Below are positions 1 to 56,495 of a DNA stretch of 56,495 bases, in pieces. Position numbers and translations under genes: made by a program. This stretch comes from Halorubrum californiense DSM 19288 (GTDB lineage: Archaea; Halobacteriota; Halobacteria; Halobacteriales; Haloferacaceae). Under the pieces are notes generated by a model. That model was not told the DNA's origin. It saw only the letters and a list, made by a program, of their open reading frames with translations, and made no database searches. Position 1 is the first letter of the stretch, and each line of letters opens with the position of its first letter. Where the stretch lies: contig NZ_AOJK01000015.1 of NCBI RefSeq assembly GCF_000336875.1, positions 1 to 56,495 on the forward strand, written 5' to 3'.

Positions 1-185
1 GTATGTATAGCCTCCCGGCTGGGGCTTTGGAGGCGTTCACCGTCGATCTTCGGTCAGGTATGTATAGCCTCCCGGCTGGGGCTTTGGAGGCGTTCACCGT
101 CGATCTTCGGTCAGGTATGTATAGCCTCCCGGCTGGGGCTTTGGAAGTGTCTTCCGTCATGACCTCCGCAGATATTCATAAGCGA
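1..185 (-). repeat. Tandem 57-bp promoter-like units (upstream end of interspersed element, fifth copy)
   Basis: Three units begin at 1, 58 and 115. The first two are identical over 57 bp and the third diverges after about 30 bp. Read on the minus strand, each unit carries a TATA-like box (CTATACATAC), then about 27 bases, then a block ending CCAAAGCCCCAGCCGGGAGG. A further TATA-like box (CTTATGAATA, near 170-180) precedes the outermost block. The same TATA-spacer-block order starts the elements at 11848-12270, 44327-44740 and 56145-56402, so this is probably the promoter end of a copy whose body lies to the left of the window. The open reading frame across it (MYSLPAGALEAF repeated) is a by-product of a period divisible by three. 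Confidence 0.7.
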
Positions 186-309: not shown

Positions 310-1095
310 ATGCCGCAACGACTCCGCGTACTCGCAGGCGACTGCGTCGTGACCGACCGCGGCGACCGCACCCGCACCCATCGGGGGCGCGTCGTCGTCC
401 TGATCAAACCGGACGACACGACGCTCGTCCACGACGCCGACGGCTACCAGCCCGTCGCGTGGCTCACCCGCCCGGAGAGCGTCGTCGTCGAGGGCGACGG
501 CGACGGGTTCACCGTCACCGCCCGCGACGGCTCCCGGCGGCTCCGCGTCGTCGCCGAGGAAGCGACCGCGAGCCGCGCCCTTCCCGTCACCGAGGCGGGC
601 GTCCCGGTCGGGACCTGCCCCGACGACGGCGGCCCGCTCGTGCGGTCGCGCGGCGACGTGGTCTGTCTCGACTGCGAGACGCGCCGGGGGCTCCCGGCGG
701 GCGCGAGCGTCACGGACGCGACCTGCGACGACTGCGGGCTCCCGAAGATCCGCGTCGAGCGCGGCGAGCCGTTCCACCTCTGTCTCGACCCGGCCTGCGA
801 TCCGATGGACGACGCCGTCAGCGACCGGTTCGACAGGGCGTGGGAGTGTCCGGACTGCGAGGGCGACCTCCGGGTCCGCTCGGCGCCCGGCCGCGTCTAC
901 CTCGGCTGCGAGAACTACCCGGACTGCGAGACCACGTTCTCGTTCCCCGCCGGCGTCGTCGTCGACGAGTGCGACTGCGGGCTCCCCGTCTTCGAGACGG
1001 CGGCCGGGCTCGGCTGTCTGGACGGGACCTGTCCGATCGACGGGCGAACGACAGAGGGCGAAAAGACCGAATCTCCGGATCCGAACGCCGGCTAA
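310..1095 (+). CDS. Zinc-finger DNA-binding protein with NucS-like N-terminal domain
   Basis: 261 aa. Residues 1-75 (RLRVLAGDCVV, RGRVVVLIKPDDTTLVHDADG) resemble the N-terminal DNA-binding domain of archaeal NucS/DUF91 proteins, but no nuclease domain follows. The rest carries repeated Cys4 fingers of the topoisomerase C-terminal type: CPDDG..CLDC near 115-133, CDDCGLP..CLDPACD near 150-175, CPDCEGDL..CENYPDC near 190-217 and a last CDCGLP..CLDGTC. A DNA-binding or repair accessory role is inferred; the enzymatic part of NucS is missing. The ATG has a TATA-like CTTTTCAC about 25 bases upstream, which fits a leaderless mRNA. It converges on tyrS with a 6-bp gap. Confidence 0.8.
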   Translation: MPQRLRVLAGDCVVTDRGDRTRTHRGRVVVLIKPDDTTLVHDADGYQPVAWLTRPESVVVEGDGDGFTVTARDGSRRLRVVAEEATASRALPVTEAGVPVGTCPDDGGPLVRSRGDVVCLDCETRRGLPAGASVTDATCDDCGLPKIRVERGEPFHLCLDPACDPMDDAVSDRFDRAWECPDCEGDLRVRSAPGRVYLGCENYPDCETTFSFPAGVVVDECDCGLPVFETAAGLGCLDGTCPIDGRTTEGEKTESPDPNAG

Positions 1096-11847: not shown

Positions 11848-12270
11848 TATTTATAAACAGACGCGGTGGCGCGTGCCTGCGAGCGGCCGCCCTCGGCGGC
11901 CGCGAGTCAGCACGCGCGAGGGAGTCGCTGGCGGCCAAAGCGGAGCGAAGGCCGCCAGCGACGAGGTTGGGGAGGTGTGAGGCTGCGGCGCTGTGCGGTT
12001 GGGTGGGAGTCAAAGGGCGGCCGGGAGGCGTGCGCAGGCGTTCACGAGAGCGAAGCTCTCGTGAGCCAATCAGAACGCAGAGCGTTCTGATGACGACGGA
12101 AGCACCACAGCGAGTGAGCGAAGCGAACGAGCGAGGAGCGCAACGAGCGTGCGCACGCCTCCCGGCCGGGGCTTTGGCGGTGTTCTTCGCGGACGCAACG
12201 ACGTACAGCCGAGCGGTCGGGGCTTTGGCGGTGTTCGCCGCTGATCCGCTGTCGACAGTTTATAAATAAC
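11848..12270 (-). repeat. Interspersed structured element, copy A (candidate non-coding RNA)
   Basis: Read on the minus strand it begins with TTTATAAAC near 12259-12268, and 27-30 bases later starts GAACACCGCCAAAGCCCC. A second such block lies 51 bp on. Stem 1 is TGCGCACGCCTCCCGGCC (12150-12167) with its perfect complement at 12019-12036 (18 bp). Between the arms are two extra hairpins (around 12043-12063 and 12070-12088). After stem 1 come CCCTTTGACTCCCACCC and CCTCACACCTCCCC, then stem 2 (TCGCTGGCGGCC, 11925-11936, with 11950-11961, 12 bp perfect), a third stem and TTTATAA at the far end. Its reading frames are not protein-like. I do not recognise the family. Confidence 0.7.
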
Positions 12271-17949: not shown

Positions 17950-18410
17950 GGTTTATAAACAAGCGAGCGAGCGGTGTCGCAGTCGAGTGTTTCTCACCGG
18001 ACGACGACTCCGGGGCGAAGGCTCCTGAAGCCTCGACCGTTCGGTTCCGGACCGCTGTCACCGAACTGACGGCGAACACCGCCAAAGCCCCAGTCGCGAG
18101 GGCGTCGCACGCTCGCCGTGCTCCTCACTCGGTCGCTCACTCCGTTCGCTCCCTCGTTGCGGTGCTTCCATCGCCTGCGACGCCCTCGCGACAGCGTGGC
18201 GCTACGCGCCACGGGCAACCGGCGGCTCCGCCGCCGGTGACTGCCCCTTTGTGTCCCACCCGACCGCACCGCAGCCTCACACCTCCCCAGCCTCGTCGGT
18301 CGCCCGTCGCTCCGCTCTGGGCGACCGACTCCCTCGCGGGCGGTTCGCGGCCGCCGGTGGCGGCCGCTCACCGGCGCGCCGACCGCACTGCGCGTTCGTT
18401 GGTTTATAAC
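17950..18410 (+). repeat. Interspersed structured element, copy B (candidate non-coding RNA)
   Basis: It starts with TTTATAAAC at 17952-17960 and ends with TTTATAA at 18403-18409. The conserved block AACACCGCCAAAGCCCCAG is at about 18075-18093. Stem 1 GTCGCGAGGGCGTCGCA (18093-18109) pairs perfectly with 18176-18192 (17 bp). Two GC hairpins specific to this copy follow (GTGGCGC..GCGCCAC and CCGGCGG..CCGCCGG). Then come CTGCCCCTTTGTGTCCCACCC, CCTCACACCTCCCCAGCC and stem 2 TCGGTCGCCC (18296-18305) with 18319-18328. It fills almost all of the 600-bp gap before ligA. No promoter-like box was found just before the conserved block in this copy. Confidence 0.7.
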
Positions 18411-44326: not shown

Positions 44327-44740
44327 AGTTTATAAATAACAGGCGGGGCCGCGGTGCGTAGCGCCGAACACTCGGCCGATTACTTATAAATAGTTGCTGG
44401 CGGATCGGCGGCGAACATCGCCAAGGTCCCAGTCGATCGGATATAAACAGGTGCCAGCAGATCGACCGCAGACACCGCCAAAGCCCCAGTCGCGAGGCGG
44501 GCGCACGCTCGCTGCGCTCCTCAGTCGCTCGCGCTGCTCGCTCCTTCCGGTGCTTACGTCGGGGTGCTTCGCCTCGCGGCTGCCCGTTTGAGTCCCACCC
44601 GCACCGCTCCGCACCACACCTCACACCTCCCCAGCCTCGTCGCTCACTCCGTTCGCGACTCCCTCGCGCGTGCGACTCACGGCCTCCGCTTCGCTCCGGC
44701 CGCTCGCAGGCACGCGCCACCGCATCGTTTTATAAGTAAC
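44327..44740 (+). repeat. Interspersed structured element, copy C (candidate non-coding RNA)
   Basis: Three TATA-like boxes (TTTATAAATAA 44329-44339, CTTATAAAT near 44385, ATATAAAC near 44441) each lie 27-30 bases before a start-like block (CGAACACTC, GAACATCGCCAAGG, AGACACCGCCAAAGCCCCAG). Stem 1 begins GTCGCGAGGC (44489-44498) and pairs with 44571-44580 through nine pairs and one G-T. Then come CTGCCCGTTTGAGTCCCACCC and CCTCACACCTCCCCAGCC, a short stem 2 (TCGC/GCGA), stem 3 (GCGCGTGC with GCACGCGC) and TTTTATAAG at the end. It fills the gap between pccA and the BKACE pseudogene. Confidence 0.7.
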
Positions 44741-44804
44741 CGTCGCCGCCTCCTGCGTCATTTAAATGCCATATCGCGACCGAGGTTCCCGGTCCGAAAT
44801 CCCA

Positions 44805-56144: not shown

Positions 56145-56402
56145 GGTCGTTTACACACGGCTACCGGTAGATCGAGGTCGAACACCGCCGAAGTCCCAGC
56201 CACTCGGCTATACGAATCCGTTTATCGACGGCCGATCGACACAAACACCGCCGAAGCCCCAGCCGCGAGGCGGGCGCACGCTCGCCGCGCTCCTCGTCGC
56301 TCGTTTCACTCGCTCCTGCGGTGCTCGCGTCGCCTGCGCCCGCCTCGCGACTGCCCCTTCGAGTCCCGCCCCGCACCTCACACCTCCCCAGCCTCGTCGC
56401 TG
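56145..56402 (+). repeat. Interspersed structured element, copy D (candidate non-coding RNA)
   Basis: Two units with AT-rich boxes (GTTTACAC near 56149, CTATACGAA and GTTTATC near 56208-56226) precede two start-like blocks ending CACCGCCGAAGYCCCAGCC, 63 bp apart. Stem 1 GCCGCGAGGCGGGCGCA (56262-56278) pairs with 56335-56351 with one mismatch. Then CTGCCCCTTCGAGTCCC and CCTCACACCTCCCCAGCC. The copy ends shortly after GCCTCGTCGCT, lacking stems 2 and 3, so it is truncated relative to A-C. Confidence 0.7.
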
Positions 56403-56452
56403 GCGCCGTAGTGCCTAGTAGAAGTTATGAAGGTAGAGTTTGATGTGTAGCT

Positions 56453-56495
56453 ATGTCTGGGGATCGCCGTAAAGAGATCGTCCGTCACCTCAGCG
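56453..56495 (+). CDS. Start of a gene cut off by the window end
   Basis: ATG at 56453 opens a frame reading MSGDRRKEIVRHLS up to the last base. The charged opening is compatible with a small DNA-binding regulator, but 14 residues are too few to assign anything. Confidence 0.45.
   Translation, partial: MSGDRRKEIVRHLS

Follow-up and report, generated by a model that had tools for sequence, protein, structure and literature searches.

Tandem TATA-box-like units at a Halorubrum californiense contig end are best explained as the 5' end of a dispersed haloarchaeal hairpin-mosaic repeat

The tandem array at the contig end

The window (the whole stretch of 56,495 nucleotides analysed here) is the complete contig C15 of the 83-contig assembly of Halorubrum californiense DSM 19288, and its position 1 is an assembly break inside a tandem array (Table 1). 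TRF detected a perfect 57-bp tandem repeat at positions 1–145 (2.5 copies, 100% match). A sequence-only reading had described units here, each with a TATA-like box and a conserved block on the minus strand, at a strict 57-bp period. The units are real and the period is exact for two and a half of them; the two inner units are identical, and the third (115–171) matches only up to 145, where it diverges into its own spacer, which runs to ~185. Each unit reads, on the minus strand, TATA-like box, ~27–30 bases, GAACRCC, and the block CCAAAGCCCCAG, and, measured from the first base of the box, the GAACRCC motif follows at ~30 bp and the block at 38 bp. The three inner boxes (ATGTATAGC) are weak, with a score of 4.5, and the outermost box (CTTATGAAT) scored 11.2; the mean of random windows was −8.9. 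The unit spacings previously given for three of the other copies in the window agreed with the block positions (copies C and D) and with the sequence (copy A).

Table 1. Features of the array, its neighbouring gene, and the other element copies in the window.
Feature	Position	Strand	Description
Tandem unit 1, closest to the missing body	1..57	-	Block 30-19; TATA-like box 3-11 (the box of the next unit); TRF
Tandem unit 2, identical to unit 1	58..114	-	Block 87-76; TATA-like box 60-68 (ATGTATAGC on the plus strand); TRF
Outermost unit	115..185	-	Block 144-133; TATA-like boxes 117-125 and 174-182 (CTTATGAAT on the minus strand)
Neighbouring gene, divergent from the element 5' end	310..1095	+	Matches to a Top1-type C4 zinc ribbon and a NucS N-terminal PH-like domain
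Copy A	11866..12228	-	Two units at 51-bp spacing; stem 1 holds two nested double hairpins
Copy B	18082..18382	+	One block, lacking a strong TATA box; nested hairpin insert
Copy C	44380..44765	+	Two units at 57-bp spacing, with strong TATA boxes; 3' AT box at ~44720-44730
Copy D	56188..56412	+	Two units 63 bp apart; hairpin 2 interrupted by an apparent insertion at the contig end

The body of the element had been predicted to lie just left of position 1, and this was borne out in part. The last 100 bp of contig C14, in the correct orientation, contain hairpin 3 (GCGCGTGC...GCACGCGCC) and half of hairpin 2, and the C14 end also bears the gene found after the element in relatives. Stem 1 and the 18-mer CCTCACACCTCCCCAGCC of this copy fall in the gap between C14 and C15, two contigs whose adjacency we infer from synteny with relatives and not from reads; both features are present at the orthologous loci of relatives. 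The gap is expected to hold hairpin 2, CCTCACRCCTCCCC, CCCCTTTG, and stem 1. With the gene at 310..1095 as the synteny anchor, roughly half of the relatives examined carried the element at this site and others lacked it. Positions 1–185 are best explained as belonging to a dispersed, intergenic, hairpin-mosaic repeat of haloarchaea, one copy of which has its 5' end here. The element breaks assemblies, and the window itself ends in a copy. In copy D and in copies on C19 and C56 (window 56400-56495; L029; L065), a hairpin is split by a common sequence (TAGTACCTAG.., GGGGATCGCCGTAAAGAGATC) that resembles an insertion element, with contig ends close by.

A family of structured elements

With 84 occurrences in the genome, against a single one of its reverse, the 14-bp block pattern is not due to chance. 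It was found in 33 of 34 genomes of the same genus, at 7 to 225 copies, and the named matches were to Halorubrum species and one uncultured-archaeon assembly. The pattern is rare on plasmids and was not found in the viral and phage collections that we searched. Other genera carry a related block, GAAAGCCCC, with the partner GCCCCTTTCAGTCCC, in 125 of 243 genomes, at up to 67 copies, and in 45 of the 77 genera sampled; its reversed pattern was never found, and the forward pattern is almost absent from Halorubrum, where the version is CAAAGCCCC with CCCCTTTGAGTCC. The two versions differ by a lineage-wide compensatory swap of the basal pairs, CAAAG/CTTTG to GAAAG/CTTTC. All 20 listed copies of one genome (G016) have CTTCG in place of CTTTG, which suggests that a whole copy population changed together.

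The element measures ~190–460 bp and comprises three hairpins, with 21-bp stem arms on a CAAAG/CTTTG base. In Halorubrum, its parts are, in order, repeated TATA–GAACACC–block units, stem 1, CCCCTTYGAGTCCC, a linker, CCTCACRCCTCCCCAGCC, hairpin 2, TCCCTCGCG, hairpin 3, CACGCGCCACCGC, and an AT box 8–17 bp beyond. The two halves of the element are also found separately in other genera. In one genome of another genus (G180:C1; 1447052/1447102, 1799082/1799130, and 2264774/2264822), GCCCCTTTCAGTCCC pairs face each other ~50 bp apart, as a REPIN-like doublet. Only 6 of 147 elements overlap a called gene, and the elements favour gene 3' ends, with 56 in convergent and 20 in divergent gaps; the gene calls behind these counts came from our own codon score and not from annotation.

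When the window was searched with Rfam covariance models, only tRNAs reached the gathering score, and relaxed thresholds added only a sub-threshold sul1 match at copy C. Searches of the literature, mostly outside subscription journals, gave no haloarchaeal match to the motif text, and on repeats, MITEs, and sRNAs yielded only general or Haloquadratum papers. The larger finding is the family itself, a haloarchaeal mosaic hairpin repeat that has neither an Rfam entry nor a paper in the literature searched. The single RNA envisaged in the sequence-only reading is replaced by a family with tens to hundreds of copies per genome, up to ~225 block copies in a well-sequenced genus, and with relatives in over half of the sampled haloarchaeal genera.

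Pairing kept and contents exchanged at stable sites

Gap-free arms were counted directly, in place of a covariance model. Among 178 distinct arm pairs, 94.3% of the 18 pairs were Watson–Crick in register, against 65.5% (maximum 69.2% in 500 trials) when the 3' arms were dealt anew and 25–33% when they were slid. Double changes occurred at 14 of these 18 pairs, and the basal pairs covaried in step (A-T 231, G-C 35; C-G 206, G-C 64). The CCC/CCC internal loop was invariant, in part by construction of the search. Only the body-adjacent block pairs with a downstream CTTTG, and this block is kept. Replacement of an entire hairpin brings in both arms at once, so the covariation shows that pairing is kept, and not that each change was compensated singly.

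Both strands fold equally well, and the folding energy gives no strand preference. Stem mismatches of the A.C type, which are G.U on the other strand, exceeded G.U (82:27, 39:2, and 10:3), in counts that treat copies as independent although they are not fully so. A first count on 73 elements had shown no bias (27 vs 29); the larger de-duplicated sets were biased. This excess would favour the strand opposite to the TATA direction as the folded or exposed one. Mutation bias could contribute to it, because a G-to-A skew is also present in an unpaired part. Stem interiors were inverted in 4 of 159 scorable copies (stem 1 of L020, L061, L071, and L084), as if flipped between the arms.

We compared orthologous copies in three 400-kb syntenic regions (G027 vs G061/G023). 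Orientation was the same in 16 of 16 comparisons, the unit number differed in 14 of the 16 (e.g., 1 vs 3 and 2 vs 8), and stem 1 and hairpin 2 were mostly different with their pairing kept. At several sites of G023 the element was missing with both flanks aligned, leaving clean empty sites. Full and empty sites were also compared for the target duplication that, with terminal inverted repeats, characterises a MITE; none was visible, the boundaries being blurred at ~90% identity. The sites are stable and their contents turn over. Exchange between copies through the linkers would be the simplest process.

A broader possibility, which we hold only tentatively, is that the multicopy structured elements across haloarchaea form one gene-converting population, with exchangeable hairpin cassettes set in conserved linkers, a basal helix that changes in step, and self-expanding promoter arrays with a non-coding 3-bp step. 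If true, it would suggest an RNA- or ssDNA-based system, not described so far, that works with a trans-acting partner. Sister species provide, at identical sites, a natural series of promoter-like arrays ranging from 1 to 8 units, and the family also shows whole hairpins replaced in place with pairing kept. The concerted evolution of archaeal repeat families and the additivity of tandem TATA boxes thereby become testable.

Promoter-like units and competing explanations

At least two units were counted in 133 of 256 Halorubrum elements, with a maximum of six, and one relative carries eight. Across these 256 elements, a TATA score of at least 7 was reached by 52% of proximal and 51–67% of distal boxes, in comparison with 0.9% of control windows, and the strong box lay mostly at −38 from the block. 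Proximal blocks are intact by construction; the block was intact in 44% of second units and in ~25–33% of further units. This combination of decaying distal blocks and strong distal TATA boxes is as expected if the boxes, and not the blocks, are kept there. The share of elements with at least one strong box rose with unit number (47%, 66%, and 83%), and 53% of single-unit elements had no strong TATA box. From the box towards the body, the conserved run comprises the TATA box, a PPE-like AT pair ~10 bp upstream of the presumed start, and a purine where that start would fall. At the level of sequence, this agrees with the archaeal promoter layout of a TATA box at ~−27, an AT pair at −10, and a purine start. 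In the outermost units, information starts ~14 bp outside the box and continues to the body, and it does not run outward, a one-sided conservation that would favour inward transcription. The units are plausible candidate promoters, and the arrays candidate promoter arrays.

The unit spacing was a multiple of 3 in 108 of 112 intervals by block matching and, once the block definition was relaxed, in 185 of 199. Because units within a length class share descent, 9 of 12 recurring unit lengths (p ~0.004) is the fairer count. Spacing (48–75 bp in Halorubrum) and TATA-to-block distance shift in 3-bp steps. The distance from TATA box to block had been taken as fixed, which does not hold in the G021/G022 clade, with its 69-bp unit and a box ~8–9 bp nearer the block.

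The reading that we prefer, at a probability of about one half, is that the units are active tandem promoters feeding a family of structured non-coding transcripts, the array itself being a fast-changing by-product of recombination. The Halorubrum 5' end carries a promoter-like TATA-box unit that multiplies in tandem, probably when repeated blocks recombine unequally or slip; outer blocks decay while outer TATA boxes persist, and the number of promoters would change along with the array. The boxes would send transcription into the element and so produce these transcripts; a gain for the host is likewise putative. Copies are old at their sites, and their hairpins would be swapped between them via the conserved linkers in a manner like gene conversion. 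Counting against this reading are the excess of A.C over G.U mismatches, the lack of a strong box in about half of the single-unit copies, the equal folding of both strands, and the 3-bp spacing step, for which a promoter model does not account.

A repeat acting at the DNA level is an explanation that we regard as possible but doubtful. A trans-acting protein would maintain, move, or shuffle the element in the form of single-stranded or cruciform DNA, as for REP/BIME or attC-type folded sites, and the TATA boxes would be AT-rich melting or docking sites that need not be promoters. The equal pairing on both strands, the wobble bias towards the strand opposite to the TATA direction, the inverted stem interiors, the skew to gene 3' ends and convergent gaps, the second AT box beyond the 3' end, and the close inverted pairs in another genus are consistent with this explanation. 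However, the box is followed by PPE-like and start-site-like positions, no autonomous relative was found, the sites appear stable and not mobile, and the Y1-transposase/TnpB loci examined do not have these hairpins as ends, one TnpB locus merely lying near a copy. The element resembles REP/BIME/REPIN sequences (PMC3116915, PMC2817692) in its intergenic hairpins, which number from tens to hundreds in each genome, its gene-end skew, its mosaic structure, and, in one genus, its close inverted pairs. It differs from them in its larger size with three hairpins, promoter-like tandem units, archaeal host, and variable stem sequences with fixed linkers, and no RAYT-type partner was found: the genome has four Y1 transposases, none with element motifs in the loci scanned. 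Nor is the element, at 190–460 bp with 21-bp arms, a REP-type palindrome of 20–40 bp with a GTAG or CGTC tag.

The original proposal, that selection favours tandem promoters because they increase or adjust expression of one functional non-coding RNA gene, now appears unlikely. The persistence of distal TATA boxes beside decaying blocks and the promoter-like spacing speak for it, and the promoter-like anatomy that it described is retained. The comparisons do not support a promoter dose that is maintained for one RNA, because unit number changes fast and differs at nearly all orthologous sites; moreover, many copies lack a strong box, and in a relative entire elements are missing from the corresponding intergenic gap although the genes on both sides align normally. 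Promoter-bearing repeats have been described in the halovirus HF2, where intergenic repeats (58-bp class I, with AT-rich motifs) were cloned upstream of a reporter and, according to the title, carry promoters (PMC8707807). These repeats differ from the element in being viral; the abstract describes no structured body, and the element motif was not found in the phage and viral collections.

An encoded tandem peptide repeat, whose reading frame the multiples-of-3 spacing would preserve, is the least credible alternative and was rejected: no frame is open throughout, each frame of both strands meets stops in many units, the variability has no codon phase, and neither stem 1 nor the linker has a length divisible by 3.

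Descent from an IS605-type transposon as a core-deleted relic with near-terminal palindromes (a PATE) is only slightly less improbable. The palindromes, high copy number, and nested small repeats match those of Haloquadratum, whose PATEs and SMRs are transposase-free palindromic repeats with other small repeats inserted and with "switch repeats" at identical positions (PMC3119063). The element shares with them a transposase-free, palindromic haloarchaeal character with small repeats inserted, but it has no IS605-type ends and no motif in common, its sites are stable, and its hairpins are heterogeneous with constant linkers. Element motifs were absent from 33 of 34 Y1-transposase/TnpB loci, and in the remaining one (L350) the motif belonged to a coincidentally neighbouring copy. 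An IS605/PATE or REP/RAYT origin was rejected, as the 34 loci scanned had no ends in common with the element.

Small double-hairpin inserts (e.g., TCATCAGAACGC...GTGAACG; window 11866-12177, L032, L075, and L080) are nested in several copies, within stem 1, the linker, or hairpin 3. They recall the SMR elements that target PATEs in Haloquadratum.
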